DNA from: Agromyces cavernae
GTDB taxonomy: Bacteria; Actinomycetota; Actinomycetes; Actinomycetales; Microbacteriaceae
NCBI RefSeq assembly: GCF_021044935.1
Contig: NZ_JAJNMP010000001.1
Span: 248,001-312,000 of the forward strand
Direction: 5' to 3'
DNA: 64,000 bases
Positions 42,990-63,902 of the stretch are shown in pieces. Numbering within the stretch: position 1 is the stretch's first letter; every line of letters begins with the position of its first letter. A program made the translations under genes and the position numbers. Under the pieces are notes generated by a model. The model saw nothing but the letters and a program-made list of their open reading frames with translations, was not told the DNA's origin and did no database searches.

Positions 42990-43003
42990 GACTTTCATCG
43001 GAA
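42990..43003 (+). promoter_or_regulatory. Candidate operator upstream of tatA
   Basis: GACTTTCATCGGAA shares its 10-base core ACTTTCATCG with CAACTTTCATCGAAGG at 54286. It resembles GACTTTCATTGCAAG upstream of the ROK gene (63888-63902, opposite strand). Confidence 0.45.
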
Positions 43004-43069
43004 TCTGTGATTAGTCTGTCCTCGCCTGCGGCGCCGCCGGTGCCGAACAGGCCTTCGACTGGAGGAATC

Positions 43070-43309
43070 ATGTTCGCGAACCTCAACGGCTGGCACGCCG
43101 TCATCGTCATCGCCGTCATCCTGCTGCTGTTCGGCGCCCCCAAGATCCCGCAGCTGGCGCGGTCGCTCGGACAGTCGATGCGCATCCTGAAGACCGAGAT
43201 CCGCGAGGAACCGGGCGTCGCGATGCCCGGGGCAACGGTGTCGCCGGTTCCGGACGTGGCTGAGCCGGCAGCCGCTACTTATGACGGTGCATCGACTAAA
43301 GCTCTCTGA
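43070..43309 (+). CDS. tatA: Sec-independent translocase subunit TatA
   Basis: This 79-residue protein has one N-terminal hydrophobic helix ([16 protein letters not shown]), the FGAPKIP hinge and an amphipathic helix ([15 protein letters not shown]), then a polar tail. TatA oligomers form the passage for folded proteins. It stands alone, without tatC, just before a gene whose product has a twin-arginine signal. GGAGGA precedes the ATG. Confidence 0.88.
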
Positions 43310-43317
43310 GAGTCCGC

Positions 43318-43356
43318 CAACTTTTGCTTGACCGACTCGTTTCAAATGCATAGAGT
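43318..43356 (+). promoter_or_regulatory. Promoter with shared upstream element, Tat-exported TIM-barrel gene
   Basis: CAACTTTTGCTTGAC (43318-43332) is identical to 47863-47877. It runs into a -35 TTGACC (43328-43333) with -10 TAGAGT (43351-43356) 17 bases on. Start of the gene is at 43424. Confidence 0.68.
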
Positions 43357-43423
43357 TCCGAAAAGCGAGCAGGTGATTCCACTGCGAGCTGTGTACACCC
43401 CTCTTCACGTGCAAAGGAGCATC

Positions 43424-44578
43424 ATGAACGACGATCTCATCGATCGCAGCGACGATCCGCAGCTGGGGCGCAGCCTCGGCCTCACCCGACGCCAGCTGCT
43501 CGCGGCGACGACGGGCATGGCCGCAGCCGCCGCACTCGGTGCCGCCGCATTCGGCGCGGGCCCGGCCCACGCCGCAACGGCCGCCGCGGCGCGCACCGCG
43601 CCCGGCGCCAACGGAGTGCTGATCCCGCCCGGCAAGCGGGGCATCATCCTCTACACCGTCCGCGACGCCATCTCGCGCGACCCCGGCACCACCCCGTTGG
43701 CATCCGGGTTCCGCGCGGTCTTCGAAGAGCTGTCGCGCATCGGGTACAAGCAGATCGAGTTCGCGGGCTACGGTCAGCACGCGAACGCCGAGGGCGGCAA
43801 CGTCAACAACGTCGCCGGCGCCCACCTGCTGCGTACGTGGCTCGACGACAACGGACTCGAGGCCGAGGGCAACCACGGCTCCATCCCGTCGACGATCACC
43901 GACGCGACGCTCGCAGCGTTCGACGCGCAGTGCGAGATCGCGAACATCCTCGGGTTCGGCCACATCGGCACGGGCGGCGACCCCACCGGCAGCGCCTACG
44001 TCGCCGACTGGGAGGCGGCGGCCGAGCGATGGAACATCCTGGGTGAGCGCGCCGCAGGGCACGGGCTGAAGCTGTACACGCACAATCACGACGCCGCGTA
44101 CAGCTTCCTGCTCGACAGCGGCCCGCTCGACGCGCTGGGTCGCCCGACCCGGTCGAGTGGCATCCGGCGTCTCGAGCACTTCCTGGCGAACACCGATCCG
44201 AACTACGTGTACCTCGAGATGGACATCTACTGGGCGCACGTCGCGCAGTACAAGCACAAGGTGTTCACCGCCCCCGACGGCAGCTCGGTCGAGAGCATCT
44301 TCGACCCGGCCGCCGTCGTCGCAGCCCAGACCACCCGGTTCCCGCTGTTCCACGCCAAGGACGGCAAGAGCAACCCGAACACGGCGAACGGCTACGACAT
44401 GGTTCCGTTCGGCACTGGAGACATCGACTACACGACGTTCTTCCAGCGCATCGGGGCCAAGGGCTATCACAACCCCATGTGGGAGCAGGACTCGGCTCCG
44501 GGCGGCGCAGCCAACCCCGGCCAGTCCCTCGCGTTCGCGCAGACCTCCTACAGCAACATGGCCGCCCTGCGCGGTTAG
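43424..44578 (+). CDS. Tat-exported TIM-barrel protein, sugar phosphate isomerase/epimerase family
   Basis: This 384-residue protein starts with a twin-arginine signal (LGLTRRQLLAATTGMAAAAA, cleavage after AHA about residue 48) and so is exported folded. The mature part is an AP-endonuclease-2/xylose-isomerase-like TIM barrel. Likely metal-site segments are KLYTHNHDAA, YLEMDIYWAH, PLFHAKDGK and NPMWEQDSA. Relatives include epimerases and keto-glycoside lyases/hydratases; the reaction here is not known. ATG 43424 follows AAAGGAG. Confidence 0.85.
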   Translation: MNDDLIDRSDDPQLGRSLGLTRRQLLAATTGMAAAAALGAAAFGAGPAHAATAAAARTAPGANGVLIPPGKRGIILYTVRDAISRDPGTTPLASGFRAVFEELSRIGYKQIEFAGYGQHANAEGGNVNNVAGAHLLRTWLDDNGLEAEGNHGSIPSTITDATLAAFDAQCEIANILGFGHIGTGGDPTGSAYVADWEAAAERWNILGERAAGHGLKLYTHNHDAAYSFLLDSGPLDALGRPTRSSGIRRLEHFLANTDPNYVYLEMDIYWAHVAQYKHKVFTAPDGSSVESIFDPAAVVAAQTTRFPLFHAKDGKSNPNTANGYDMVPFGTGDIDYTTFFQRIGAKGYHNPMWEQDSAPGGAANPGQSLAFAQTSYSNMAALRG

Positions 44579-44660: not shown

Positions 44661-47429
44661 ATGTCAACACCCCGGTTCCGCCTGGGCGCACTCGTGCTCA
44701 GCGGACTCCTGGCGGTCACCTCGCTCACCCTGAGCGCCGGTGCCGCCTCTGCCCATGAAGGGCACGATCACGGCGACGAGGTCAGCGCCACCACGTGGGC
44801 GAACTACGAGCGCGTGACCCTGTCGCGTGATGTCGGCGAGCCGATCGACCTCGCCGTGCTGCCCGACTCGCGCGTGCTGCACACGACCCGTGGCGGCCAG
44901 GTGCGCCTCACCGATCCGGCCCAGGGCACGACGACGGTCGTCAACACGATCGACGTCTACGCGAACTCCGAGGACGGGCTGCAGACGATCGCCCTCGACC
45001 CCGGCTTCGAAGAGAACAACTGGGTCTACCTCTACTACGCGCCCAAAACGATGACGGCGCCGTACCCGGCGACCACGCCGACCGGCTCGGCGCCGAACAC
45101 CCTGCCGGCTGGTGCCGACGAGTCGTACTGGAACCAGTGGAAGGGCTACAACCAGCTCAGCCGCTTCCAGTGGGATGCCGAGACGAACTCCCTCGACCTC
45201 GCGAGCGAACAGGTGATCATCAAGGTCGAGGTGCAGCGCGGCCAGTGCTGCCACGTCGCGGGTGACCTCGCCTGGGACAACGACGGCAACCTGCTGCTCT
45301 CGACGGGCGACAACACGCCCGCAGGCACGCCGGGTGCCAACGGCTACGCGCCGAACAACGACCGGGTCGGCTACAACCCCGGTCTCGATGCGCGTCGCGG
45401 CGCGGGCAACTCGAACGACCTCCGCGGCAAGATCCTGAGGATCGACGTGCAGGACGACGGCTCGTACACGATTCCCGCCGGCAACCTGTTCGCCCCGGGT
45501 ACCGCGAAGACCCGCCCCGAGATCTACGTCACGGGCCTCCGCAACCCGTTCCGCATCGACTACGACCCCGAGACGAGTGCACTCACGTGGGGCGACTACG
45601 GCCCCGACGCGGGTACGGCGAGCGATCTGCGCGGCCCGATGGGGTACGTCGAGTGGCAGAGCACGACCAAGCCGATCAACGGCGGCTGGCCGTATTGCCA
45701 CGGCCCGAACGCGAACTACAACGACTGGGACTTCGAGACCCTCACGCAGGGGCCCTGGTTCGACTGCGCGGCCGGTCCGCTCAACACCTCGCGCCACAAC
45801 ACGGGCCTCGACCAGCTGCCCGCGGCAACCGCGCCGCAGATCTGGTACGGCGACCAGCCCACGCACCAGCCCTGGCCCGAACTCGGCGCCGGCGGCCAGG
45901 CGCCGATGGGCGGCCCCACCTACCGGTACGACGAGGAGAACGAGGCGACGACGAAGTTCCCCGAGTACTGGGACGGCAAGGCGTTCCTCGCCGAGTTCTC
46001 GCGCGACCGCCTCTTCGCCTTCAGCCAGGAGGACCCCGACGGCGAGGTCACGAAGATCGAGGACTTCCTGCCGAACTCCGCCCTCAACGCGGCGGGCATG
46101 CCCCCGTGGGACAACGTGATCGACTTCGAGTTCGGTCCTGACGGCTCGCTCTACGTGCTCGACTACGGCGACGGCTTCTTCCGGCCGAACCCCGACGCCG
46201 GCCTGTACCGGGTCGACTACGTCGAGGGCACCAAGGGCCCGCGCGTCCAGCTCGACGCGTCGGTGACGTCGGGCCAGGGTCCGCTCGAGGTCGACTTCTC
46301 GGCCGCCGAGAGCACCCACCCCGACGGCCTCGCGCTCAGCTACGCGTGGGACCTCGAGGGGAGCGGCACGTTCACCGACGGTGAGGCCGAGGTGAGCCAC
46401 ACGTTCACCGAAGACGGGCAGTACACGGCTCGTGTGCGGGTCACCGACTCCGGTGGACGCGTCAGCCTCGCGTCGGTCGTCATCACGGTGGGCAACACCG
46501 CACCGACGATCGAGATCGTGGCTCCCGAGAACGGCTCGTTCGCCGACTGGGGCGACGCCGTCGCCTTCGAGGTGAAGGTCACCGATCCCGAGGACACCGA
46601 GATCGACTGCTCGCGTGTGAACTGGAGCTACGCCCTGGGCCACGACAACACCCACGCCCACCCGCTGTTCACCGGCACCGGCTGCACCGCGGAGATCGAG
46701 ATGCAGGAGGAGGCCGGCCACGGCGAGACCGAGAACATCTACGCCCAGATCGGCGCCTCGTACACCGACGGCGGCAGCGCGACGGCTCCTGCGCTGACGA
46801 GTGACGACGTGACGTTGCTCAACCCGCGCGAGCTGCAGGCCGAGCACGCCGACGCGAAGGGCGGCGAGACGACCATCGTCGACGACGAGACCGCGCACGC
46901 GTTCCGCAAGGTCACGTCGTTCGACCCGGGTGATTGGCTCGCCTTCGACCCGGTCAACCTCGTCGGGATCACGGGTGTCGAGGCTCGCGCCATCGGCGCC
47001 GGAACCCTCGCCCTGCGCTGGGGCAGCGTCGACGCCGAACCGTTCGCCACGATCGACGTCGCGAGCACCGGCTCGGAGTGGCAGAACGCCGCGACCGCAC
47101 TGGTCGACGCGCCTGAGGGCACCGATCGCCTCTACGTGACGTCCACGGGCGGTGTCGACCTCGACCAGCTCGCCTTCACGACGAGCGCGGTCGACGTGCG
47201 TGCACTGCTCGACGCGCTCGTCGAGTCCGGTGACATCACCAACGGCGCGCGCACGTCGCTGCAGGTCAACCTCGACCGTGCGATCGCGAAGCTCGCGGCC
47301 GACGACGTGGCCGGTGCCGTCGCCGACCTCGAGTCCGCGAAGAACCTCGCCGGCAGCGTCATCCGCGACACCGACGCCCGCGCGCTGGTCGTCACGGCCA
47401 TCGAGGCGGTGATCGCCGACCTCCAGTAG
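44661..47429 (+). CDS. Secreted PQQ/GSDH-type beta-propeller dehydrogenase with PKD, CBM6 and FIMAH domains
   Basis: This 922-residue protein has a Sec signal (about residues 1-31, ending ASA) followed by HEGHDHGDE. A six-bladed propeller of the soluble glucose/sorbosone dehydrogenase type covers about 40-525 (EDGLQTIALDPGFEENNWVY, NSNDLRGKILRID, YVTGLRNPFRIDYD). Then come a PKD domain (about 530-620), a beta domain with HDNTHAHPLF, a CBM6-like region (about 725-840) and a C-terminal helical FIMAH-like domain (about 845-922). It probably oxidises a sugar or glycan outside the cell. PQQ use is family inference. AAGGAGA precedes the ATG. Confidence 0.88.
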   Translation: MSTPRFRLGALVLSGLLAVTSLTLSAGAASAHEGHDHGDEVSATTWANYERVTLSRDVGEPIDLAVLPDSRVLHTTRGGQVRLTDPAQGTTTVVNTIDVYANSEDGLQTIALDPGFEENNWVYLYYAPKTMTAPYPATTPTGSAPNTLPAGADESYWNQWKGYNQLSRFQWDAETNSLDLASEQVIIKVEVQRGQCCHVAGDLAWDNDGNLLLSTGDNTPAGTPGANGYAPNNDRVGYNPGLDARRGAGNSNDLRGKILRIDVQDDGSYTIPAGNLFAPGTAKTRPEIYVTGLRNPFRIDYDPETSALTWGDYGPDAGTASDLRGPMGYVEWQSTTKPINGGWPYCHGPNANYNDWDFETLTQGPWFDCAAGPLNTSRHNTGLDQLPAATAPQIWYGDQPTHQPWPELGAGGQAPMGGPTYRYDEENEATTKFPEYWDGKAFLAEFSRDRLFAFSQEDPDGEVTKIEDFLPNSALNAAGMPPWDNVIDFEFGPDGSLYVLDYGDGFFRPNPDAGLYRVDYVEGTKGPRVQLDASVTSGQGPLEVDFSAAESTHPDGLALSYAWDLEGSGTFTDGEAEVSHTFTEDGQYTARVRVTDSGGRVSLASVVITVGNTAPTIEIVAPENGSFADWGDAVAFEVKVTDPEDTEIDCSRVNWSYALGHDNTHAHPLFTGTGCTAEIEMQEEAGHGETENIYAQIGASYTDGGSATAPALTSDDVTLLNPRELQAEHADAKGGETTIVDDETAHAFRKVTSFDPGDWLAFDPVNLVGITGVEARAIGAGTLALRWGSVDAEPFATIDVASTGSEWQNAATALVDAPEGTDRLYVTSTGGVDLDQLAFTTSAVDVRALLDALVESGDITNGARTSLQVNLDRAIAKLAADDVAGAVADLESAKNLAGSVIRDTDARALVVTAIEAVIADLQ

Positions 47430-47862: not shown

Positions 47863-47902
47863 CAACTTTTGCTTGACGATCGGTGTTCGGCACCCCTAGA
47901 TT
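47863..47902 (+). promoter_or_regulatory. Promoter with shared upstream element, ThuA-propeller gene
   Basis: CAACTTTTGCTTGAC (47863-47877) is repeated exactly from 43318. The -35 is TTGACG (47873-47878) and the -10 TAGATT (47897-47902), with an 18-base spacer. The gene starts at 47972 after GGAGGT. Confidence 0.68.
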
Positions 47903-47971: not shown

Positions 47972-50900
47972 ATGCTCACCCCCTTGCACAACGTCGCCGC
48001 CCGGCTCGTCGCCGGGTTGATCGCGGCAGTGCTCGTCATCGGATCCGTCGCGTTCGCGGCGGTGCCGGCCCAGGCCCACCCCGGCGCCCACGTCCTGATA
48101 TTCACGAAGACGACGCAATTCCGGCATACGGACGCGATCGACAAGGGCACGCCACTGATCGTGGCCGCGCTCGCCGCCGAGGGGATCGAGGCGACGCACA
48201 CCGAGGACTCGACGCTGTTCAACGACACCGAGCTCGCGAAGTACGACGCCGTGATCATGTTCCAGGCGTCGGGCGATCCGTGGAACGCCGAACAGAAGGC
48301 AGCCCTCGAGCGGTACCAGCAGGCCGGCGGCGGCATCGTCGCGATCCACAACGCGACCGACATGCGCGGCAACTACCCCTGGTGGGACCAGCTCGTCGGC
48401 TCGCTGATGCCCGGGCACGCCGCGACCGGCACCGACCCCGGCCTGCGCGGCACGGTGCGGATCGAAGACGACACGCACCCGTCGACCGAGCACTTCGAGG
48501 AGAGCCGCTGGGAGCGGTCCGACGAGTGGTACAACTTCTCCAACAACGTGCGCGGCACCGCGCACGTGCTCGCGTCCATGGACGAGTCGACGTATGACGC
48601 CGGCGGCAACAAGATGGGCTACGACCACCCGATCTCGTGGTGCAAGCCGTACGACGGCGGTCGTGCGTGGGCCACGGCGATGGGGCACTTCGGCTCGCAC
48701 TACCAGGAGCCCGCGTTCATGCAGCACATCGTGGGCGGCGTGAAGTACGCAGCCGGCGTCGAGCAAGGCGACTGCGGCGGCACGGTCTGGGACAGCTTCG
48801 AGAAGGTGCCGCTCGACCAGAACACGTCGGCACCGTTCGCGATGGACATCGCCGACGACGGTCGGGTCTTCTACACCGAACTCGTGCGTGGGCAGGTCCG
48901 CATGTGGGACCCCGCCACGAACGACGTCACGACCGTGCTCGAGCTCGACGTCTACTCGGGCGGTGAGGACGGCCTGCTCGGCATCGCCCTCGACCCCGAC
49001 TTCACCGAGAACGGCCGACTCTACCTGTACCGTTCGCCCGACGCGCCGAACAACTCCGACCCGTCGAGCTTCTTCAGCCGCGTCTCGCGGTTCACGATGG
49101 AGAACGGCGTCATCGACCCCGCCACCGAGGAGCTCATCATCGAGGTGCCGGCACGGCGCCTGCCCGATGAGCCTGGCCACACCGGCGGTGGGCTGGACTT
49201 CGACGCCCAGGGCAACCTGTACCTCGGCGTCGGCGACGACGTGAACCCGCACTCCGAGCCCTCAGGCGGCTACGCGCCGCTGTCGACCCGGCCCGGCACG
49301 TTCCACGACGCGCGCGAGACCTCGGCGAACACGAACGACCTGCGCGGCAAGCTGCTGCGCATCACCCCGAAGGCAGACGGCCCGGGCTACACGATTCCCG
49401 AGGGCAACCTCTTCGACGAGGCCGCCGACGCCGCGAACAAGACGCTGCCCGAGATCTATGCGATGGGATTCCGCAACCCGTTCCGGTTCTCGGTCGACCA
49501 GAAGACCGGTGCGATCAGCCTCGCCGACTACTCGCCTGACAACGGCACCGACGCACCCGCGACGCGCGGCCCCGCCGGCATCGCCGAGTGGAACTACATC
49601 ACGAGCCCCGGCAACTACGGCTGGCCGCTCTGCATGGGTGACAACGAGCCGTTCCGCGATGTCGACTACACGACGAACCCGGTGACGGTCGGAGAGTTCT
49701 TCGACTGCGCCAGCCCGATCAACGACTCACCGCGCAACACGGGCCTCACGGAGCTTCCGGCCGCTCGTGGTGCCGACATGTTCTACGGCTACAAGCGCTC
49801 GTCGGTCCCCGGAATCATCCCCCAGGGCGGCGGTCTCGCTCCGATGGGCGGCCCGGTGTACAACTACGACCCGGCGCTCGTGTCCGACACGAAGTTCCCG
49901 GCCTCGTACGACGGCAAGCCCTTCTTCTACGAGTGGGCACGCAACAAGATGTACTCCATCCAGCTCAAGGACCCCGCGGCCTCGTCGGGCTCGCAGGTGG
50001 AGAAGGTCAACGCGTTCCTTCCCCAGGAGCAGTTCCTCGCACCGATCGATTCGCGGTTCGGTCCCGACGGCTCGCTCTACGTGCTCGACTGGGGCGGTGG
50101 ATTCGGGCGAGACAACCCGAACTCGGGCCTGCACCGCATCGACTACATCTCGGGCTCGCGCTCCCCGGTGGCGAAGGCCACGTCCGACAAGGACTCCGGC
50201 CAGGCGCCGCTCACGGTGGCATTCGACGGTTCGGCCTCGTTCGACCCCGAGAACGCGGCACTCGCGTACGCCTGGGACTTCGACGGCGACGGCACGGTCG
50301 ACGCGACCACCGCGCAGGCCAGCCACACGTTCGCGTCGGAGGGCGTGTTCGACGCGCGGCTGACGGTCACCGATCCCGACGGCAAGACCGGCACCACGAC
50401 GGTGCCGATCACCGTGGGGAACACGCGGCCCGACGTCGCGATCTCGCTCCCGCCGAGCGGCGCGTTCTTCGACTTCGGCGACGATGTGTCCTGGGCCGCC
50501 CAGGTGACGGATCCCGAGGACGGCACGATCAACGGTGACGACCTCATCATCCAGCCCGCACTCGGACACGACGAGCACGCCCACCCGCTGACGCCGCTCA
50601 GCGGCTTCACCGGAACGACCGCGACGAGCCTCGGCGGACACGCACCCGACGAGGACATCTTCTTCGCGATCGACGCGCGGTACACCGACCGCGGCGGCGC
50701 CGGCGGCGCGAACCCGCTCACGGGGTCGCAGACGACGCTCCTGTATCCGAAGGTCAAGCAGGCGGAGTTCTTCGACTCGGCCTCGGCGGGCATGAAGACC
50801 GGACCGAGCCGTGATGTCGAGGGCATCGCCGGCGACCTCGTGATCACCGGCGGCGACGGCGCCTGGGCGCACTACGACCCGGTGAACTTCCACCGGATCG

Positions 50901-53900
50901 ACGACCTCGCGCTGCGGGTGTCGGCGAACACCGCGGGATCGAGCATCGAGCTTCGCAAGGGAGCCGTCGACGGCGAGCTGCTCGCCACCGCGGACGTCCC
51001 GGCCACGGGCTCGATGCGGTTCACCGATGTCATCGTCGACGTGAGCGCCTTCCCGAACGAGACGCTCGACCTCTACGTCGTCTTCCGCGGCGGTGAGATC
51101 AAGCTCAACTTCCTCGAGGCGATCGGCCGGGGAGCCTCGCCCGTGGCGGCGCCCACGGTCGCGATCACGGCACCCCAGCAGGACGTCCAACTCGAGCCCG
51201 GGCAGGACGTCACCGTCGCCGCGGACGCCGCGGACACGCAGGGCGAGGTCTCGAAGGTCGAGTTCTTCGTCGACGGCGTGTCGATCGGCGCGGACGACTC
51301 CGCCCCGTACTCGGCGACCTGGACCGCTCCCGAGGAGGGCCTGTACGAGCTCACCGCGGTCGCGACCAACACGGGTGACAAGTCGAAGACCTCGCGCATC
51401 GTCCTGGCTCAGGTCGGCGAGCTGTTCGGCGACCTCGTGCCGTTCACGAACGCCGAAGGCACCTTCGAGCGCATCGGCGACGGGAAGTTCCGCATCAACG
51501 GTGCCGGCGACAACACCTGGCAGGGCACCGACGAGTACTCGACGCTCTTCGCGCCGGCCGGTGGCGACGACAACTGGGAGGCGGTCGTGAAGATCGACGC
51601 CCAGGAGAACACGAACGGGTCGGCCAAGGCGGGCCTCATCGTCCGCAACGACGTGACCCTGCCGGGTACGTCGCCGGGCTACGCGCTGGTCGGCATCCGC
51701 CCGAACGGCGGGGTCGAGTTCCTCACCGACCCCGACGGCAACGGGCAGCTGAACGCCTCCGTGGCAGGCGGCACGACGAGCTACCCCACGTGGGTCAAGC
51801 TCAAGCGCGATGCGTCGGGCTACACGGCGTACTTCTCGAAGAACGGCACGTCGTGGACGCAGGTCGGCGGAGCGGTCACGCTCGCCGGGGCTGCGGCAAC
51901 CCAGGACGTGGGCATGTTCATGGTGTCGCACTCGGCGACCGAGGGAACGGTCGACTTCGCGGACTTCGCGATCGACACCGACCCGGCCGGACCTCAGCCG
52001 GTCGAGCCCCTCCAGCCGCTGGCCTGCCCGACCGGACCGCTCTCCGACGAGTTCGACGCACCCGCGCTGGCTCCGTCGTGGGCGCTGCGCTCCGACCCGG
52101 CGAAGCCGATCACCCAGTCGGGTGGAACGCTGAACCTGCCGGTGACCACGGGCGACATCAACGAGGCCGCGACCGGCCCGGTGAGCTTCGCGGGCAAGCC
52201 GCTGCCCGCCGGCGCCTGGGAGGCGACCACGAAGATCACGCTCGCGCACACGTCGCACTGGCAGTGGGCCGGACTGGTCGTGCACCAGAACGACAACGAG
52301 TACAACAAGCTCGCGTTCGTGCGGGGCCAGGGCGGTGGACGGTTCATCGAGTTCCAGAGCGAGACCGCGGGCTCCCGGACCACCCCGGCTGCCCCGGCAT
52401 TGGCCACGGACTTCCCGTCGACCATCCACCTCAAGCTGACGAGCAACGGCACTGTGCTGACGGGCGCGTACTCGGCCGACGGCCAGACGTGGACGGCACT
52501 CACCGGCCAGCTGCAGCTCAAGCAGAACGCGCGCATCGGCGTGATGGCGGCCGGTGACCTGGGCACGACCCCGGTCACGGCCCAGGTGGACTGGTTCCGC
52601 TTCAGCCCCGAGCCCGCACCGGGCGAACTGGTCGGTCCGAACGACGAGTTCGACGGAACCGCGCTCGACGGCTGCCGCTGGGACCAGAGCGTGCGCTACG
52701 ACTCGAACAACGCGAAGGTCGCCGACGGACACCTGAAGATCACGACCCAGCCGGGCGACATCAACGGTGCCAACCCCATCTCGCCGCGCAACTTCATCCT
52801 CACCAAGGCTCCCGAGGGAGACTGGGTGGCGACGACGAAGTTCAAGGCGCCGCTGAAGCACCGCTGGCAGCTCGCAGGCCTGCTGATGTGGGCCGATGAC
52901 GACAACTACGTCAAGGCGGATGTCGTGGCCACCAACAACCCGGGCACGGCCCTCAACCTGAAGGCCGAAATGGCCGGCGAGGCGAACGGCACGGGCTTCG
53001 GGAGCCGCAACATCGAGATCCCCGACTCCAGCGAGAGCGGGTACTGGTACATCCGGGTCACGAAGACCGGCGACCAGTACACGTCGGAGGTGAGTGACGG
53101 CGGAGTCAACTGGACCCCGATCGGCACGTCGGCGATCACGTTCGACAAGCCGCTGCGCGGCCTCGGGCTGATGGCCATCGGCCCCCAGCAGGAGGAGCCC
53201 GTCGTCGTCGAGTTCGACTCCTTCCACCTCGAGCAGGAAGTCGACGACACCACCGCACCGACGACCAGCCTCACGTGGGCTCCCGACGCGCCGGACGGCG
53301 AGAACGGCTGGTACCGCACGGCGCCGAAGTTCACGCTCGCGGCGACCGACGGCGACGGTTCGGGCGTGACCTCGACCGAGTACGCGATCGGCGACGGCGC
53401 GTGGACGGCCTACGATGCTCCGGTCGAGCTGTCCGGGCAGGGCGAGGTCTCCGTGTCGTACCGCTCGACCGATGAGGCCGGCAACGTCGAGGAGAAGGGC
53501 ACTGCCACGGTGAGCGTCGACACGGTCGCCGCCGCCACAACGGCCACGGTCGAGGAGGTCGAGGGGGGCGTCCGCGTCACCCTGGCCGCCGTCGACGACA
53601 CGTCGGGCGTGGCAGGCACGCAGTACCGTCTCGACGGCGGGGAGTGGGCGGCGTATGCCGAACCGATCCTCGTGACCGGCGCCGGCGACCACACGGTGGA
53701 CTACCGGTCCACCGACAAGGCGGGTCATGTCGAAGTCGACCAGACGGCGACCGTGACGATCGGCGAGGATCCCGGTCCCGTCGAGCTGAAGCTCACGAGC
53801 GCGGCGGCGTCGCAGTGCGTCGACAGGATCGCACAGGTCGCGGTCTACGCCACCAACGCGGGTAATGTCTGGGCCGACATGCGGATCGACACCCCGTGGG

Positions 53901-54285: not shown

Positions 54286-54317
54286 CAACTTTCATCGAAG
54301 GACTAGCAAAAGTCGCC
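54286..54317. promoter_or_regulatory. Candidate double operator upstream of the Gfo/Idh-ABC operon
   Basis: CAACTTTCATCGAAGG (54286-54301) is followed by AGCAAAAGTCGCC (54305-54317). The reverse complement of the second, GGCGACTTTTGCT, matches GGCAACTTTTGCT at 47861 in 12 of 13 positions. The gene starts 23 bases downstream. Confidence 0.58.
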
Positions 54318-55447: not shown

Positions 55448-56952
55448 CCGAGCCGATCCTCATCGCCGAGGGGCTCGAGAAGTCCTTCTTCGGCGTCCAG
55501 GTGCTCCGGGGCGTCGGACTGACGTTGTACCCCGGCGAGGTGCACGGCCTCATCGGTGAGAACGGCGCCGGCAAGTCGACGTTCATGAAGATCCTCGCGG
55601 GAGTGTACGAGCGCGACGCCGGCACGATCCGGCTGGCCGGCGAAGAGGTGGACTTCCAGCACCCCGTGCAGGCCGCTCGCGCGGGTCTCGCGACGGTGTT
55701 CCAGGAGTTCAACCTCCTTCCCGAGCGCACGGTCGCCGAGAACGTCTTCGTCGGGCGCGAGCCCAAGCGCGGCGGATTCGTCGACCGCAAGGCGATGGTG
55801 CGCAAGACCCGCGAACTGCTCGCCGACCTCGGCATCGATTCGATCGAGGCGGATGCTCCGGTGCGTAGCCTATCCGTGGCCGAGCAGCAGATCGTGGAGA
55901 TCGTGAAGGCGCTCTCGACCGACGCCCGGGTGATCCAGATGGACGAGCCGACGGCGGCGCTGGCCGACCACGAGGTCGAGCTCCTCTACGCGATCGTCCG
56001 GCGGCTGCAGGAGCGCGGCGTCGCGATCATCTACGTGTCGCACCGCCTCAAGGAGATCTTCGACCTCTGCGACTCCATCACGGTGCTGAAGGACGGCGCG
56101 CTCGTCTCGACCGGTCCGGCCTCCGAGCTCGACACCGACGAGCTGGTCCGCCGCATGGTCGGTCGGCCGATCGAGGCGTACTACCCCGACCCCGAGCCGG
56201 GTACCGAACTCGGCGAACCGCGCCTGGTGCTCCGCGGCGTCGGCAACGCCTACGTCGACGGCGTCGATCTCGAGCTGCGTGCCGGCGAGATCGTCGGTGT
56301 CGCGGGCCTGCAGGGATCCGGCCGTACCGAGCTCGTCGAGGGCGTGTTCGGCATCACGCCGTTCACCCGCGGGCAGATACTGCTCGACGGCGCCGAGATC
56401 ACCATCACGAGCGCGAGGCGCGCGGTGCAGAAGGGCTTCGCGCTCATCACCGAGGACCGCAAGGCACAGGGCCTCGCCCTCAACCAGTCGGTCCTCGACA
56501 ACGCGCTGCTCGTGATCCGTTCCGTGTTCGCCCGCCGCACCCGTACCGTGCGACGGGAGCTGCCCGGCGTGCTGTCCAGCCTCGAGGTGGTCTTCCGCGG
56601 TGTCGACCAGGAGGTGCAGTACCTCTCCGGCGGCAACCAGCAGAAGGTCGTCCTCGCGAAGTGGCTGGCGACTGCGCCGCGCGTCGTGCTGCTCGATGAG
56701 CCGACGCGCGGCATCGATGTCGGCGCAAAGGTCGCCGTCTACCGGCTCATGCGCCGTCTGGCGAAGGAAGGGGTTGCGATCCTCATGATCTCCTCGGAAC
56801 TGCCCGAGGTCATCGGCATGTCCGACCGCATCGTCGTGATGCACGACGGCCGCGCGTCGGCGGAGCTGCCGGCGCGCAGCGACGAGGCCACCATCCTCAC
56901 CGCCGCGACCGGCTCGGTCTCGGCCATCGACCTCGTGGGAGGTGCGGAATGA
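55444..56952 (+). CDS. Sugar ABC importer ATP-binding protein, RbsA type
   Basis: This 502-residue double ATPase has two nucleotide-binding halves. The first has Walker A GENGAGKST and signature-like LSVAEQQIVEIVKAL. The second has the degenerate Walker A GLQGSGRTEL normal for the family, and LSGGNQQKVVLAKWL. It energises the two permeases that follow. It belongs to the ribose/xylose/galactose class, which imports monosaccharides or small glycosides. Four-base overlaps join it to both neighbours. Confidence 0.95.
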   Translation: MTEPILIAEGLEKSFFGVQVLRGVGLTLYPGEVHGLIGENGAGKSTFMKILAGVYERDAGTIRLAGEEVDFQHPVQAARAGLATVFQEFNLLPERTVAENVFVGREPKRGGFVDRKAMVRKTRELLADLGIDSIEADAPVRSLSVAEQQIVEIVKALSTDARVIQMDEPTAALADHEVELLYAIVRRLQERGVAIIYVSHRLKEIFDLCDSITVLKDGALVSTGPASELDTDELVRRMVGRPIEAYYPDPEPGTELGEPRLVLRGVGNAYVDGVDLELRAGEIVGVAGLQGSGRTELVEGVFGITPFTRGQILLDGAEITITSARRAVQKGFALITEDRKAQGLALNQSVLDNALLVIRSVFARRTRTVRRELPGVLSSLEVVFRGVDQEVQYLSGGNQQKVVLAKWLATAPRVVLLDEPTRGIDVGAKVAVYRLMRRLAKEGVAILMISSELPEVIGMSDRIVVMHDGRASAELPARSDEATILTAATGSVSAIDLVGGAE

Positions 56953-58025
56953 GCACCATCGCCCCGGCGAAGCAGCGTCGCCGTCGCCGGCAGCTCGACG
57001 CCACCTTCATCGTCGGTGTCGCCCTGGTCGTGGTCATCGTCGTGGGCGCGATCCTCGTCTCGACCGTCGGTCGCAACTTCTTCAGCCCGGGCAACATCCG
57101 CGACATCCTCACCGGGATGAGCGTGCTGGGCTTCGTCGCGATCGGCCAGACCCTCGTGATCCTGTGCGCGTCGCTCGATCTCTCCGTTCCCTACGTGATC
57201 AGCCTCTCGAGCCTGATCGCAGCCGATCTGATGCAGGGGAACCCGGCGAACATCCCGTTCGCGGTGCTCGTCACCCTCGCCGTCGCGGCGGTGATCGGTC
57301 TCGCGAACGGGCTGATCGTCACCAAGCTCAAGGTCAACGGCTTCATCGCCACGCTGGGCACCGGCCTCATCATCAAGGGCTACCTCGACTCGACCTACAA
57401 GGGCACGAGCGGCAATGTCCCTTGGGAGTTCCAGCTGATCGGCGCCACGGGGCTCGGCCCGATCCCGGTGTCGACGCTCCTCATGCTCGCGACGGCGCTC
57501 CTCGCCGCACTGTTCCTCTCGCGCACGCGCATCGGACATCAGATGTTCGCCGTCGGCGGCAGCGAGCAGGTCGCCCGACTGTCGGGCATCCGCACCGCCC
57601 GGCCGATCATCGTCGCACACGTGCTCTGCTCGATCGCGGCGGCGCTCGCGGGCCTGCTGCTCGCCAGCCGGCTCGGCGTCGGGAGCCCGACCGTCGGCAC
57701 CCAGGGCGGCTACGACCTGCTCTCGATCGCCGCGGTCGTGCTCGGTGGAACCCTGCTCATGGGTGGCCGCGGCTCGATCTGGGGCACGATCGGCGGCGTC
57801 GCGATCTTCGCCGTCATGGACAGCGTGATGAGCGTCATGCAGGTGAACCCGTTCCTCAAGGACGTGGTGCGAGGCGTCGTCATCGTGGCGGCCGTCGCGA
57901 TCTACACGAGTCGCAACCTCGATCGTCGTCGGCCCCGCTTCGGCCCGGGCGGATCGGTCGCAGCGATCACCGACGCCCCCACCGCCGAGAAGCCGTCGAT
58001 CACGAAGGAAGGAGCGAAGCGATGA
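56949..58025 (+). CDS. Sugar ABC importer permease, RbsC type (first)
   Basis: This 358-residue membrane protein has about nine to ten hydrophobic helices, with ILTGMSVLGFVAIGQTLVIL and KVNGFIATLGTGLIIKGYLD as family regions and SIAAVVLGGTLLMGGRGS late. The charged N-terminus (AKQRRRRRQLD) faces the cytoplasm. It forms a heterodimer with the next permease. Confidence 0.93.
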   Translation: MSTIAPAKQRRRRRQLDATFIVGVALVVVIVVGAILVSTVGRNFFSPGNIRDILTGMSVLGFVAIGQTLVILCASLDLSVPYVISLSSLIAADLMQGNPANIPFAVLVTLAVAAVIGLANGLIVTKLKVNGFIATLGTGLIIKGYLDSTYKGTSGNVPWEFQLIGATGLGPIPVSTLLMLATALLAALFLSRTRIGHQMFAVGGSEQVARLSGIRTARPIIVAHVLCSIAAALAGLLLASRLGVGSPTVGTQGGYDLLSIAAVVLGGTLLMGGRGSIWGTIGGVAIFAVMDSVMSVMQVNPFLKDVVRGVVIVAAVAIYTSRNLDRRRPRFGPGGSVAAITDAPTAEKPSITKEGAKR

Positions 58026-59206
58026 CCACCGTCACGGAAGCCGCGCCCACGACCGGCGAGCGCATCGCCGCCCTGGGGCGCAACCTGATCAGCCCGCGTG
58101 GGGCCGTGTTCCTCCTGCTCGCGGTGCTGTTGGTGGCGATCACGATCCTCAACCCGTCGTTCGCAGAACCCGGCCAGTTCATCCGGTTCATCCAGCGGGT
58201 GGCCCCGGTCGCGATCGTCGCGATCGGACAGTACTTCGTCATCGTCGGCGGCGAGTTCGACCTGTCGATGGGGTCGGTCGTGACCGCACAGGTGGTCATC
58301 GCCGGCAACCTCATCGGCGAGGACGACGCGAAGTCGATCCCGGTGCTGCTCCTGATGCTCGCCTTCGGTGCGCTCATCGGACTGGTGAACGGGCTGATCG
58401 TCTCCTTCCTGAAGGTGCCGAGCTTCATCGTCACCCTCGGCATGATGCTCGCCCTGCTGGGCGGGGTGCTCTACTGGACCGGCGGCGCCGCCACCGGCAA
58501 CCCCGCCGACAACTTCAGGGAGATCGGCAGGGGCGGCATCCGCGACCTTCCGGTCATCGAAATCCTGCCGTGGTCGGTCGTCGTGCTCGCGGCCATCCTC
58601 GCGCTTGCGATCTGGTTCTCGCGCCGGCCGTTCGGTCGCACGATCATCGCCCTCGGCGACAACGCCACGACCACCGGCTTCGCGGGAGCACGCACCTGGT
58701 GGGTGAAGACCTCGACGTTCGTCATCTCGTCGCTCTCGGCCACGGTCGCCGGGGTGCTGCTCGTCGGCTATGCCGGCGTCCACCCCAGCGTCGGCAGGGG
58801 ATACGAGTTCATCGCGATCACCGCGGTCGTGCTCGGCGGCGTGGTGCTCGGAGGCGGGCGCGGCTGGGTTGTCGCAGCGGTGGCGGGAGCGTTCGCGCTC
58901 GAGGCGCTGTTCACGCTGCTGAACTTCGCCGGCATCCCGTCGACCTGGCGCGACGCCGTCCAGGGCGTGATCATCATCCTCGCCGTCGCCTACGCGGCCA
59001 CGACCTTCCGGGCACGCCGGAAGGGCCACGCGCTGGAGGCGCCCGCCTCGCATCCGTCACCCGATGCGTCCCAGACTTCGCCCGAGACGGCGAACCAGAC
59101 TTCGCCCGCACCCGGAGCGAAGGAGTCGGATGACCCGTCATCCGCTCGTCCTGCAGCAATTCCCTCATCGCAGAGGGCTGACAACGAAACCAAAGGAGGT
59201 TCGTGA
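58022..59206 (+). CDS. Sugar ABC importer permease, RbsC type (second)
   Basis: This 394-residue permease has the family regions VAIGQYFVIVGGEFDLSMGS and KVPSFIVTLGMMLALLGGVL, and AITAVVLGGVVLGGGRG. A long polar C-terminal tail of about 60 residues, rich in Ser/Pro/Ala/Glu, contains the repeated phrase QTSPETANQTSPAPG and is unusual. It overlaps the preceding gene by four bases, and its stop abuts the binding-protein start. Confidence 0.92.
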   Translation: MTTVTEAAPTTGERIAALGRNLISPRGAVFLLLAVLLVAITILNPSFAEPGQFIRFIQRVAPVAIVAIGQYFVIVGGEFDLSMGSVVTAQVVIAGNLIGEDDAKSIPVLLLMLAFGALIGLVNGLIVSFLKVPSFIVTLGMMLALLGGVLYWTGGAATGNPADNFREIGRGGIRDLPVIEILPWSVVVLAAILALAIWFSRRPFGRTIIALGDNATTTGFAGARTWWVKTSTFVISSLSATVAGVLLVGYAGVHPSVGRGYEFIAITAVVLGGVVLGGGRGWVVAAVAGAFALEALFTLLNFAGIPSTWRDAVQGVIIILAVAYAATTFRARRKGHALEAPASHPSPDASQTSPETANQTSPAPGAKESDDPSSARPAAIPSSQRADNETKGGS

Positions 59207-60411
59207 TGCGACGCAAGTTCACTGTGGTATCGGCCATGGTCGGCGCTCTCGCGCTGATGACGCTCGCCGGTTGTACGACCGATCCGAACGTGGCCGCCCC
59301 GTCCGCAGAGGCGGAGACCACTGAGGAGGCGGTCGAGTGGTTCGACCAGGCGCTCTTCGACAAGCAGGACGCCGAGCGCGACGTCGTGCCCGAGGGCCCG
59401 GAGGACCAGCCGTGGCTCCAGTACATCAACGCGGAGATGGTGGACACGTCCTCGTTCGCCAGCGAGGGCGCGAAGAAGGCGTGCTTCGCCAACGCCTCGA
59501 TCTCCAACCCGTGGCGCCAGACCGGCTGGATCACCATGAACCAGCAGCTGAAGGTGCTCCAGGAGGCCGGGGCGATCTCCGAGATGGAGACGCGCGACGC
59601 GCAGGATTCCGATGACACGCAGATCGCCGACATCGACTACTTCATCAACGAAGGCAACTGCGACGTCTTCATCATCTCGCCGAACTCCACCGCGGCGATG
59701 ACGCCGGCCGTCGAGCGTGCGTGCGACACGGGCAAGCCCGTGATCGTGTTCGACCGCGGCGTGCAGACCGACTGCCCCGTCACGTTCATCCACCCGATCG
59801 GTGGATTCGCGTGGGGCATCGACACGGCCGAGTTCCTCATCGGCGAGCTCGAGGAAGGCGACAAGGTCGTGGCGCTCCGCATCCTGGCCGGCGTCGACGT
59901 CCTCGAGCAGCGCTGGGCCGCCGCCGAGAAGCTGTTCGACGAGGCCGGTATCGAGGCAGTCGACTACTTCACGGGTGCCGACCCCGCCGAGATCAAGAAG
60001 ATCATCTCCGACGAGCTCGCCAAGGGCGACGTGCAGGGCGTGTGGATGGATGCCGGTGACGGCGCCGTCGCGGCCATCGAGGCGTTCGAGGACGCCGGCG
60101 TCGACTACCCCGTGATGACGGGTGAGGACGAGATGAGCTTCCTCCGCAAGTGGAAGGAGACCGGGCTCACGGGCCTCGCGCCGGTGTACTCCAACTTCCA
60201 GTGGCGCACGCCGCTCCTCGCGGTGCAGAAGATCTTCGCCGGCGAAGAGGTGCCGAAGGAGTGGGTGCTGCCCCAGTCCCCGATCGCCGCGGAGGAGGTC
60301 GACGAGTACCTCGCGCTCAACGAGGGCATGCCCGACGGCCACTACGCGAAGTTCGGTGGCGAGGACCTGCCCGGCTACCCGCAGGTCTGGGAAGAGCGCG
60401 TGATGCCGTAA
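59206..60411 (+). CDS. Sugar ABC importer substrate-binding lipoprotein, ribose type
   Basis: This 401-residue protein has a signal peptide ending in the lipobox TLAGC (Cys about residue 22). The periplasmic-binding-protein type 1 fold includes NPWRQTGWITMNQQLKVLQE, FIISPNSTAAMTPAVERAC and GVWMDAGDGAVAAIEAFEDA. It captures a sugar for the RbsA/C-type importer. I chose ATG 59206 because AAAGGAGGT ends at 59200; a GTG three bases earlier is too close. Confidence 0.93.
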   Translation: MRRKFTVVSAMVGALALMTLAGCTTDPNVAAPSAEAETTEEAVEWFDQALFDKQDAERDVVPEGPEDQPWLQYINAEMVDTSSFASEGAKKACFANASISNPWRQTGWITMNQQLKVLQEAGAISEMETRDAQDSDDTQIADIDYFINEGNCDVFIISPNSTAAMTPAVERACDTGKPVIVFDRGVQTDCPVTFIHPIGGFAWGIDTAEFLIGELEEGDKVVALRILAGVDVLEQRWAAAEKLFDEAGIEAVDYFTGADPAEIKKIISDELAKGDVQGVWMDAGDGAVAAIEAFEDAGVDYPVMTGEDEMSFLRKWKETGLTGLAPVYSNFQWRTPLLAVQKIFAGEEVPKEWVLPQSPIAAEEVDEYLALNEGMPDGHYAKFGGEDLPGYPQVWEERVMP

Positions 60412-60543: not shown

Positions 60544-61413
60544 ATGCGCCGCACGATCGGTGTGAACACCTGGGTCTGGACCTCACCGCTGGATGACGAC
60601 TCATTGGCCGATCTCGCGGCGAAGGCGGCCGCCATGGGCTTCGGATCGATCGAACTCCCGATCGAGCAGGAGGGGGACTGGTCACCCGATGCCGCGGCCG
60701 ACGTGCTCGCCGAGCATCGTCTGCTTCCCGTGGTGATCGGGGCGATGGGTCCCGGCTGCAACCTGGTGGCGGCACCGGGCTCCGAGGTCGTCGCGACGCA
60801 GAACTACCTCGTGCACTGCGTGAAGGTCGCGCAGCGCCTCGGCTCCCGCGTCGTGGCCGGTCCCTTCACCGCGTCGACCGGACGCACCTGGCGCATGGAC
60901 GATGCCGAGCGCGCCGCGCGCTACGACGAACTGCGGGCGGGTCTCGCGCCCGTGGTGCGGCAGGCGGAGGAGCGAGGCATCCGTCTCGCGATCGAGCCGC
61001 TGAACCGCTACGAGACGAGCCTCGTGAACACGGTCGACCAGGCCCTCGATGCCCTGGGGCCGCTCCTCGGCCCCGGACTCGGGCTCGCGCTCGACAGCTA
61101 CCACCTGAACATCGAGGAGAAGGACATCGGCGCGGCGATCCGCGCCGCGGGGGAGCACATCGCCTACGTGCAGGTGTGCGGCAACGATCGGGGCGCGGTC
61201 GGCGACGACCACATCGACTGGCCGGGCTTCCTCGACGCGCTCGACGACGCCGGCTACGCCGGACCGCTCGGCCTCGAGAGCTTCACCGGCGAGAACGCCA
61301 CGATCGCGGTCGCCGCATCGGTGTGGCGTCCGCTCGCCGACTCGCAGGACGACCTCGCGCAGCGGAGCATCCGCTATCTCGACGCTTTGCAGAATAAGAG
61401 GGACGGACGATGA
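60544..61413 (+). CDS. Sugar isomerase/epimerase, D-tagatose 3-epimerase-like
   Basis: This 289-residue cytoplasmic TIM barrel has the likely metal-site residues of ketose 3-epimerases: Glu in [12 protein letters not shown], Asp and His in [13 protein letters not shown], His in DDHIDWPGF and Glu in GLESFTGE. Start region [20 protein letters not shown] is family-like. It could epimerise a keto-sugar or act as a lyase/hydratase on a 3-keto product. AAGGAG precedes the ATG. Confidence 0.88.
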
Positions 61414-61447: not shown

Positions 61448-62449
61448 GTGACCCGACCGATCACGTTGTTCACCGGCCAATGGGCCGACCTGCCGCTCGA
61501 GGAGGTCGCCCGACTCGCATCCGGCTGGGGCTACGACGGCCTCGAGATCGCCTGCTGGGGCGACCACCTCGACCCGTGGCGGTGGGACGACGATGACTAC
61601 ATCGCCGACCGGCTCGCGCTGCTCGAGCGGCACGGTCTCAAGGTCTACGCCATCTCGAACCACCTCAAGGGCCAGGCCGTCTGCGACGACCCGATCGACG
61701 CCCGCCACCGCGACATCCTCTCGGCGAAGGTGTGGGGCGACGGCGACCCTGAAGGCGTTCGCCAGCGCGCCGCCGAAGAGATGAAGCACACCGCGCGTCT
61801 CGCGGCCCGCCTCGGCGTCGACACGGTCGTCGGCTTCACCGGCTCGGCGATCTGGAAGTACGTGGCGATGTTCCCGCCCGTCTCGCAGGAGATGATCGAC
61901 GCCGGCTACCAGGACTTCGCCGATCGCTGGAACCCGATCCTCGACGTGTTCGACGAGGTCGGCGTGCGCTTCGCCCATGAAGTGCACCCCTCCGAGATCG
62001 CCTACGACTACTGGACCACCGTGCGCACGCTCGAGGCGATCGGGCACCGCCCGGCGTTCGGCCTGAACTGGGACCCGAGCCACATGGTCTGGCAGGACCT
62101 CGACCCGGTCAGCTTCCTCTGGGACTTCCGCGACCGCATCTACCACGTCGACTGCAAGGACACGAGGAAGCGCATGGCGAACGGCCGCAACGGCCGCCTC
62201 GGCTCGCACCTCGCGTGGGCCGACCCGCGCCGCGGATGGGACTTCATCTCGACGGGCCACGGCGACGTGCCCTGGGAGGACGCGTTCCGCATGCTCAACA
62301 CGATCGACTACCAGGGCCCGATCTCGATCGAGTGGGAGGACGCCGGCATGGACCGCCTCATGGGCGCGCCCGAGGCCCTCGAGTTCGTGCGCCGCCTCGC
62401 GTTCGACGCGCCCGACGCGGCCTTCGACGCGGCGTTCAGTACGAAATAG
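61448..62449 (+). CDS. Sugar phosphate isomerase/epimerase family TIM-barrel protein
   Basis: This 333-residue cytoplasmic TIM barrel has probable metal-site segments [34 protein letters not shown] and ISIEWEDAG, with acidic and His residues in the usual strand ends. It is distinct from the preceding epimerase. The paired presence suits a two-step eliminate/rehydrate scheme as in levoglucosan catabolism, which is inference. The start is GTG 61448 with AAGGAGG just upstream. Confidence 0.88.
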
Positions 62450-62470
62450 CGTCGTCGCCGCCTGAGAACG

Positions 62471-62509
62471 ACGGATGCCGCGGGGTGTGTGTTCCCCCGC
62501 GGCATCCGT
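62471..62509. terminator. Bidirectional terminator
   Basis: ACGGATGCCGCGGGG (62471-62485) pairs perfectly with CCCCGCGGCATCCGT (62495-62509), followed by ATTTCTG. It lies between the convergent epimerase and ROK genes. Confidence 0.85.
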
Positions 62510-62533
62510 ATTTCTGCCTGGTACCGGCCGGTG

Positions 62534-63760
62534 CTAGACCTTCGCCATGCCCGGTGCGCCGATGACCATCTCCTCGATGTTCGCGGGCGAAAGGGCGTGG
62601 TGGATCGCGAGCATGCAGGCGCCGAGCACAGCGGCGTCGGCCCCGGCCTTCGACTGGGTGATCTGCAGGTGCTCGGTGGCGAGCGGCATGGAGCGCGTGT
62701 AGACGATCTCGCGCACGCCCGCGATGAGGTGCTCGCCCACCTGCGCTGCCGAGCCGCCGATGACGATGACCGACGGGTTGATGAGGCTCACGCAGGTGTT
62801 CAGCACCTCGCCGATGTCGCGGCCGGCCTGGCGCACGGCCTGGATCGCGTCGATGTTGCCGCGCTTGACGAGCTCGACGACGTCTTGGCCGGTCTCGGCG
62901 CTGAGTCCCATCTCACTGAGGGCACGGGCGAGTGCGGGCCCTGAGGCGAGCGCCTCGAGGCAGCCGCGGTTGCCGCACTTGCACGGGACGTCGGCGCCGC
63001 GCGCCACGTAGACGTGGCCGATGTCGCCCGCGGTGCCCTGCGCGCCGCGCTGCAGGATGCCGCCCGAGATGACGCCGGAGCCGATGCCGGTGGCGACTTT
63101 GACGAACATGAGGTGATCGACCTCGGGCCACGAGAGCTCGCGCTCGCCGAGGGCCATGATGTTGACGTCGTTGTCGACGAGCACCGGCACGTCCCAGCTG
63201 TCGTGGAACCAGCCGGGCACGTCGAAGCGGTCCCAGCCGGGCATGATCGGAGGGTTGATGGGGCGGCCGGTGCTGTACTCGACGGGACCGGGCAGGCCGA
63301 TGCCGATCGCGAGCACGTCGCTCGGTGAGCGACCGAGCTGGGCGAGCAGATCGTGACCGGCGCTCGACACCCAGCTGAGCACGGCCTCGGGGCCTTCGGC
63401 GACCTGGATGGGCTCGTTGCTCTCGGCCTGCAGGCGACCCGTGAGATCGCTCACCGCGATGCGCACATGCGACGCGCCGACATCGACGCCGAGGACGACC
63501 CGGCCGCTCGCCGCGATGGCGAACTGGCTCGAGGGGCGACCGCCGGTCGAGACCGCGTCGCCGACGGGGCCGACGAGGCCGAGCTTCATGAGCGCATCGA
63601 TGCGAAGTGCGACGGTCGAACGGGCGAGGCCGGTCATCGTCGAGAGTTCCGTGCGAGTGCGTGGGCGGCCGTCGCGGAGGATCTGGAAGAGGTCGCTCGC
63701 TACTGAGGATCCGAGGGCGGTGACGTGCCCGTCGCCCCCCTCGCGACTTATGTCGGTCAT
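62534..63760 (-). CDS. ROK-family transcriptional regulator
   Basis: This 408-residue protein has an N-terminal winged helix (RTRTELSTMTGLARSTVALR, about residues 32-65) and a ROK sugar-kinase-fold domain. The domain contains GVDVGASHVRIAVSD, the sugar-site IGIGLPGPVEY, and the zinc motif CKCGNRGCLEAL. It likely senses a sugar from this island and represses its genes. ATG 63760 is chosen; an open extension upstream has no site. A motif shared with island promoters lies at 63888-63902. Confidence 0.92.
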   Translation of the reverse strand: MTDISREGGDGHVTALGSSVASDLFQILRDGRPRTRTELSTMTGLARSTVALRIDALMKLGLVGPVGDAVSTGGRPSSQFAIAASGRVVLGVDVGASHVRIAVSDLTGRLQAESNEPIQVAEGPEAVLSWVSSAGHDLLAQLGRSPSDVLAIGIGLPGPVEYSTGRPINPPIMPGWDRFDVPGWFHDSWDVPVLVDNDVNIMALGERELSWPEVDHLMFVKVATGIGSGVISGGILQRGAQGTAGDIGHVYVARGADVPCKCGNRGCLEALASGPALARALSEMGLSAETGQDVVELVKRGNIDAIQAVRQAGRDIGEVLNTCVSLINPSVIVIGGSAAQVGEHLIAGVREIVYTRSMPLATEHLQITQSKAGADAAVLGACMLAIHHALSPANIEEMVIGAPGMAKV

Positions 63761-63887
63761 AGTCTTATTATTCCATGCCTTCTGGTCAAAGGGTGCGCGC
63801 TTCGGCCGTTTGAGCGAACTCGATTCGGTGGCCGTGATGGATAGCAGAGCGATCCATGCTTTCCCATGGATCGCCTGTTCCGTCGCG

Positions 63888-63902
63888 CCTTGCAATGAAA
63901 GT
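63888..63902 (-). promoter_or_regulatory. Candidate ROK operator
   Basis: Read on the minus strand: GACTTTCATTGCAAG. It shares GACTTTCAT with 42990 and ACTTTCAT with 54286. It lies 128 bases upstream of the ROK start, in a 181-base gap with no other clear signal. Confidence 0.42.

Follow-up and report, generated by a model that had tools for sequence, protein, structure and literature searches.

A locus of Agromyces cavernae with an exported lyase-type protein, secreted propellers and a hydratase-type gene: a tentative route for beta-glucoside-like compounds divided across the membrane

Non-hydrolytic cleavage of glycosides is a recent field in which few systems have been worked out. Its four established steps are C3 oxidation, beta-elimination, hydration and reduction (PMC10628242, PMC7676230, PMC13273386). 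Here we compare with the described systems a block of eleven genes from the soil bacterium Agromyces cavernae (genome of 4.07 Mb, completeness 99.98%), found in a stretch of 64,000 nucleotides, the window, that covers positions 248001-312000 of contig C2. The genes, with the letters by which we refer to them, and the sites associated with them are as follows, in window positions.

43277..43302, plus strand: ROK-operator-like inverted repeat ACTTTTG-N12-CAAAAGT with 3 mismatches, before T (motif search)
43320..43332, plus strand: exact 13-mer ACTTTTGCTTGAC, an operator half-site with -35-like TTGAC, before T
43424..44578, plus strand: T, TIM barrel (PF01261) exported by the twin-arginine (Tat) route, predicted 3-keto-glycoside 1,2-lyase (family, fold, residues)
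44661..47429, plus strand: G, secreted propeller of the pyrroloquinoline quinone (PQQ) aldose dehydrogenase fold with PKD, CBM6 and FIMAH domains, candidate extracellular oxidase
47865..47877, plus strand: second exact copy of ACTTTTGCTTGAC, before H (genome-wide word search)
47972..54073, plus strand: H, secreted protein of 2033 aa with ThuA, GSDH propeller and further domains (family matches)
54288..54313, plus strand: best ROK-operator match of the genome (N12 form), 2 mismatches, before D
54341..55447, plus strand: D, LgdC-like Gfo/Idh/MocA dehydrogenase, candidate 3-keto-glucose reductase or glucoside 3-dehydrogenase
55444..56952, plus strand: a, ATPase of an ATP-binding cassette (ABC) importer, ribose/arabinose type (family matches)
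56949..58025, plus strand: p, permease, BPD_transp_2 (family match)
58022..59206, plus strand: q, permease, BPD_transp_2 (family match)
59203..60411, plus strand: s, sugar-binding lipoprotein, Peripla_BP_4, lipoprotein signal by eye
60544..61413, plus strand: E, ketose-3-epimerase-like TIM barrel with a metal-ligand His replaced by Gln (alignment)
61448..62449, plus strand: F, TIM barrel of 2-hydroxy-3-keto-glucal hydratase type (structure-database sequence match, tree)
62534..63760, minus strand: R, ROK-family regulator, convergent with F (family match)

All eleven genes are backed by Pfam or NCBIfam matches and by codon-position signal, which confirms the gene content given in a preliminary description of the window. 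They lie as T-G, H and D-a-p-q-s-E-F on the plus strand with R on the minus strand, and fill the interval from a Fur-family gene (42479-42877) to the window end; D, a, p, q and s follow one another with 4-base overlaps, provided that s begins at GTG. The block was described earlier as 42990..63902; position 42990 precedes the first gene, and the bounds are best set at about 43277-63760. Long open reading frames on the minus strand, for example 42995-44728 and 49727-55273, were set aside as high-G+C artefacts on the basis of codon-position gene calling.

With regard to the described systems, the AtOGE/AtHYD/Gfo operon of A. tumefaciens (PMC10628242; PDB 8bvk, 8ro4) has the same four-step logic with the Gfo oxidoreductase last, and F is a relative of its AtHYD. 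The oxidation there is by a flavoenzyme, whereas Agromyces has a candidate secreted propeller for oxidation and a lyase-type protein with an export signal. The levoglucosan (lgd) pathway (PMC7676230, PMC10066097) has Gfo proteins, PF01261 TIM barrels and a sugar ABC importer in common with the block, and ROK regulators also occur in lgd neighbourhoods. Unlike that pathway, the block has no LgdA at the curated cut-off and no clear LgdB1 relative, and D resembles instead the second Gfo of one lgd locus. For lactose use by Caulobacter, LacABC and a DUF1080 hydrolase have been proposed to carry out oxidation and then cleavage of the glycoside outside the cytoplasm (PMC9007349); the enzyme families differ, and DUF1080 (PF06439) turned up here in relatives only, as a fusion with ThuA. 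The pathway was earlier suggested to be possibly undescribed. The chemistry itself is already described (PMC10628242, PMC7676230), and the Agromyces set looks like a divided version of such a route. The literature matches listed include no paper on this gene set, which is not proof of absence.

Families, folds, catalytic residues, gene linkage and a shared operator-like sequence were computed. The substrates, the C3 regiochemistry, the use of PQQ, ROK binding, the imported compound and what E and ThuA do are inferred. We suggest, with belief and doubt close to balance, that the block is a ROK-controlled regulon for beta-glucoside-like compounds, with an oxidation-elimination-hydration-reduction route divided across the membrane. 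Outside the cell G, and perhaps also H, would oxidise the sugar, presumably at C3, and T would remove the aglycone by beta-elimination to give 2-hydroxy-3-keto-glucal. This compound, or the keto-glycoside, would be taken up by the importer of a, p, q and s. Inside, F would add water to give 3-keto-glucose and D would reduce that to glucose, while E may deal with epimeric or side-product keto sugars, or carry out elimination for compounds imported whole. The preliminary description had a secreted arm, parallel to the cytoplasmic one, that begins the attack outside. An outside start fits oxidation and elimination there, but the two arms look serial, not parallel. The serial reading explains why the enzyme types of the arms differ; it needs a propeller that oxidises C3 and import of an unsaturated keto sugar.

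In the case of T, a twin-arginine signal, LTRRQLLAATTG, was seen by eye. The TIM-barrel fold is nearest to AL1/BT1, tied with two uncharacterised Parabacteroides structures. The metal ligands and the catalytic H-x-H of the eliminases are kept in 25 of 25 aligned T proteins, and the eliminase residues of T align with those of 8tcs, 8tcd and 8tct. T is thus predicted to be a 3-keto-glycoside 1,2-lyase of the AL1/BT1, AtOGE type. AL1/BT1 are Bacteroidota 3-keto-beta-glucopyranoside-1,2-lyases (PDB 8tcd, 8tcr, 8tct; names as in the entry titles) to which T is about 20% identical, and unlike them T is in Gram-positive hosts, with Tat export and PQQ-type propeller neighbours.

F matches 2zds (SCO6571, which has no stated function) with 577 bits and 8ro4, the A. 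tumefaciens 2-hydroxy-3-keto-glucal hydratase, with 124 bits (8e-35, residues 16-327). The similarity to 8ro4 is nearly full-length with its active-site motifs kept, and F is predicted to be an enzyme of this type. The proposed keto-glycoside chemistry is thus supported by relatives of both lyase and hydratase with solved structures. The two cytoplasmic TIM barrels had been taken for isomerases, a name that is too simple for either, F matching a hydratase and E lacking a metal ligand of the epimerases. E is near the ketose 3-epimerases (8yeb, 1e-30), in which the metal ligands are Glu, Asp, His and Glu; Gln takes the place of this His in all 12 of the E proteins aligned (that of the window and 11 relatives), so that plain epimerase activity is doubtful. 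This Gln-for-His subfamily adjoins an a-p-q-s importer in 10 of the 11 loci fetched for E.

D has both EKP and D-I-G-S-H motifs, and reaches only 170.9 bits with the LgdA levoglucosan dehydrogenase model (NF052479, cut-off 650 bits). Among 198 genomes from the order, four have an LgdA over the cut-off, and D shares 30-33% identity with those LgdA proteins. At one of these loci another Gfo lies near LgdA, with which D shares 51% identity over 273 residues; it stands in the place of LgdC and has that name by position only. To represent LgdB1 we took, by position, the TIM barrels that adjoin true LgdA genes; neither E (best 26% over 124 residues) nor F (24% over 87) resembles them. The likeness to lgd that had been noted does not, therefore, extend to membership of the levoglucosan pathway, as D misses the LgdA cut-off and neither E nor F is like LgdB1.

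Both G and H have Sec-type signal peptides by eye, and H carries ThuA, GSDH propeller, PKD, CBM6, Big_7, GH43_C2/DUF1349-type and OmpL47-type domains. The propeller domain of G was modelled and has the PQQ aldose sugar dehydrogenase fold. A propeller His and RNP are invariant in 17 of 17 aligned proteins, with RNP in all of 74 propellers; we take the His and the RN pair to be catalytic in the PQQ aldose dehydrogenase 1c9u. A strict text pattern for the His motif was matched by only 5 of the 74 and was abandoned, alignment showing the His invariant and its flanking residues variable. The soluble PQQ aldose sugar dehydrogenases (PDB 3a9g, 3das, 2g8s, 1c9u) share with G the fold, the invariant His and RNP; unlike them the proteins discussed here have long tails with PKD and CBM6, and some are ThuA fusions. 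With the TIGR03606 model for glucose/sorbosone PQQ dehydrogenases (cut-off 434.55 bits) H scores 49.7 and G is unlisted at 0.001. By its fold, PQQ use by the secreted propellers is plausible. PqqC is above its cut-off in 4 of 19 T-bearing genomes.

To sample T loci we used the best 80 of 102 loci from a genome scan with T, in which the nearest named relatives are Agromyces proteins. The window's own locus was left out; the 80 are all from Actinomycetota, with 22 genus labels (one blank) and 10 families, and were fetched with flanks of up to 10 kb, short contigs or loci under 21 kb being included so that neighbours may be cut off. GSDH/ThuA propeller genes of one cluster are near T in 60 of the 80 and F in 30 (8 genera, 5 families); an LgdA-like Gfo is present in 16, an importer ATPase in 15 and ROK in 35. 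The co-occurrence of T with propeller and hydratase-like genes is beyond chance. The order ROK, ATPase, permease, sugar-binding protein, Gfo, T, G, F is found in Ornithinibacter and Kineosporia (with ROK on the same strand in Kineosporia), and the same order without G in Pedococcus, Knoellia and Flexivirga. In Pedococcus (L017) and two Knoellia (L021, L024) the genes next after the hydratase-like one belong to a single cluster; the L017 member is a xylose isomerase (TIGR02631, 633 bits), and perhaps marks the aldose product. Among 394 genomes of the class (expectation value up to 1e-60) T is in 33 including that of the window, with 18 matches at 55% identity or less; 29 of the 32 others hold F, which is within 15 kb of T in 9.

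The window and the locus of A. humatus (L013) share two stretches, of 90.3% and 88.6% identity, that extend as far as 47490, the end of G, and a further one of 94.6% identity from 61425 to 62521, which is F. Between G and F, A. humatus has 5.8 kb with permease, ATPase, sugar-binding protein and LgdA-like Gfo genes, and the window has 13.9 kb with H-D-a-p-q-s-E. It seems from the alignment that an importer-dehydrogenase set has been replaced by a different one, with T-G on one side and F on the other left in place. T, G and F may accordingly act in a common step, with the substrate determined by the exchanged middle set.

With regard to regulation, the promoter regions of divergent ROK genes have in common ACTTTTG-N12/13-CAAAAGT, with at most 2 mismatches in 20 of the 21 regions from which the motif was itself derived (the remaining one is an empty sequence). 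ROK operator-like sites stand before the target units of the block, that before D being the best of the genome with 2 mismatches, that before T weaker, and H having a half-site only. The exact ACTTTTGCTTGAC has only two copies genome-wide, one ahead of T and one ahead of H, and the right operator half-site is absent at both. A -10-like TAGAGT is 17 bases after TTGACC before T, and a -10-like TAGATT follows the copy before H, both by eye. In Pedococcus, Terrabacter and others, including one Knoellia, this 13-mer forms the start of the operator that precedes the ATPase gene. In 40 regions upstream of T in other genomes (gap over 100 bases) a site is present in 6 at up to 2 mismatches and in 9 at up to 3 (five Agromyces, three Nocardioides, one Microbacterium), while seven control words gave 0 and 0-3 respectively; 31 of the 40 have none even when 3 mismatches are allowed, and in part of these T is internal to an operon. 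Separate regulation of the halves had been named as a result that would refute the idea. The shared operator-like sequence makes joint control of the T-G, H and D units by R likely, but the T site alone is at chance level. A further operator-like match, at window 4072, falls within a gene of LysR type by eye and is taken as chance.

Several observations weigh against a single membrane-divided route. With 3 mismatches allowed, 7 operator sites are found genome-wide against 12 for the reversed control, and because this is chance level the T site alone proves nothing. ACTTTTGCTTGAC at up to 1 mismatch has 2 hits, no commoner than the reversed control (2 and 1), so that only its exactness and place speak for its relevance. 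In 18 further loci the operator is present at up to 2 mismatches in only 3 (L027, L114, L112), the 15 without it including those of Micromonospora, Nonomuraea, Kineosporia and A. humatus. There is no PqqC above the cut-off in the window genome (16.3 bits against 240). Characterised PQQ aldose dehydrogenases oxidise C1, and oxidation at C3 by a propeller would thus be new. Of the sampled T loci 30 have no F, Gfo or EboE neighbour, including 8 of 9 Agromyces loci, and in the 32 other T-bearing genomes of the class F is elsewhere than near T in 20 and not found in 3. Lastly, a complete operon R, D, a, p, q, s, E, F, with R on the opposite strand and without T, G or H, is present in 9 of 40 loci of 20 kb fetched from Microbacteriaceae (11 picked for E, one for T and the rest for F). 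Its enzymes must suffice for something alone.

These loci come from 150 genomes of the family, that of the window included. With expectation values of up to 1e-80 for F, 1e-40 for E, 1e-60 for T and 1e-100 for H, the genomes that hold these genes number 98, 13, 2 and 4 respectively. The nine genomes with the stand-alone operon have no T or H at these cut-offs; G alone was not sought. The cytoplasmic module can thus work without the secreted one, and the arms are separable modules. The sole T/G locus among the 40 is the one picked for T (L112, G045, 9583-18916), with diverged T (39% identity) and G (53%), a ribose-type importer that is module-2-like, a sugar-binding protein gene, and an operator-like site at 18263 with 2 mismatches.

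The main alternative, which we consider rather unlikely, is that two modules share a place and perhaps a regulator: D, E and F would do all four steps on an imported glycoside, with D both oxidising and reducing, and the secreted proteins would serve another substrate. The stand-alone operons favour it, as do the 8 of 9 Agromyces loci in which T-G is without F or Gfo, some of them on short contigs. The window block is itself a hybrid, in which H-D-a-p-q-s-E replaces the importer-Gfo set of A. humatus: from D to F it shares 79% identity with the stand-alone operon found in a second genome of the genus (L093), while F is of the T-locus type, pairing in a tree of 50 F proteins with that of A. humatus (100/98), all nine stand-alone-operon F proteins being in another group (100/100). 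However F stayed with T-G through the exchange, the operator-like sequence is common to T and the cytoplasmic genes, and in Intrasporangiaceae, Flexivirga and Kineosporia T is enclosed in an operon with importer, Gfo and F genes.

If the membrane-divided route is correct, non-hydrolytic glycoside cleavage can have its first half outside the cell, a function is gained for some of the giant secreted GSDH/ThuA proteins, and an operator and genes are available for testing it. The fuller proposal, of a Gram-positive pathway with C3 oxidation and lyase outside, hydration and reduction of imported 2-hydroxy-3-keto-glucal inside, and the lyase-propeller pair reused at EBO operons, is one we offer as doubtful. 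EboE is present in 27 of the 80 T loci, with EboE-type genes at those of Streptomyces, Terrabacter, Humibacillus, Microbispora and Micromonospora. The one Streptomyces T locus scanned has an EboA domain (168 bits), EboE (425) and an SCO3242-type prenyltransferase (389) over cut-off, with EboC (132 of 250) and EboA-family (60 of 320) below it. In the window's own genome (L144, C2:738001-758000, 7913-20001) another GSDH propeller gene is directly before an EBO-type operon for polyprenyl synthase, inositol-phosphate synthase, SCO3242/EboC-type, TIM-barrel, EboA-domain, TatD-type and EboE proteins. EBO is proposed to make an isoprenoid-cyclitol compound (PMC5133447), and in Nostoc to function in the export of scytonemin intermediates to the periplasm (PMC6282210). 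No paper linking EBO with ThuA or GSDH is among the literature matches listed. The neighbourhood is a concrete chemical lead for the EBO cluster, and reuse of the pair there, if real, would tie a metabolite-traffic cluster to keto-sugar chemistry.

The same EBO neighbours would also favour a non-nutritional role, in which T and the propellers modify a surface or exported prenyl-cyclitol compound of EBO operons and the link to sugars is secondary. We think this improbable, as the window block showed no EBO gene and has importer and hydratase-type genes as the neighbours instead. Inositol-type catabolism, with D as inositol dehydrogenase and E and F as inosose-processing TIM barrels, is favoured by the weak scores of D with iolG (117.6 bits against a cut-off of 355) and of F with iolE (47 bits against 290), and is rejected as very improbable since both are far below the curated cut-offs and F matches AtHYD better (124 bits, from a different search, with scores comparable only roughly).

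As for ThuA, proteins in which it is fused to the 3-keto-disaccharide hydrolase domain (PF06439) are encoded beside GSDH genes at L046:1312-2661 and L054:13528-15600. Their cluster is in 24 of the 80 T loci, of Micromonospora and Streptomyces only, with both domains in the two members scanned, and hints at a role for ThuA in keto-sugar chemistry. Further large ThuA-GSDH proteins of 1468-2079 aa are encoded at L006:1871-6277 (window's own genome), L141, L142 and L143. The gene is about 2 kb from an F/LgdA-like Gfo/importer set in L141 and about 11 kb away in the L142 genome, and L143 has two in tandem.

Elsewhere in the window, a ZnuA-type zinc-uptake gene, ABC genes and the Fur-family regulator (38837-42877) are directly 5' of the block, in the same order as in A. 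humatus. A separate sugar region at 10359-19817 has genes for a LacI regulator, an SBP_bac_1-type ABC importer, a GH2 enzyme, a BadF-type ATPase family protein and phosphomannose isomerase, which suggests mannoside use.

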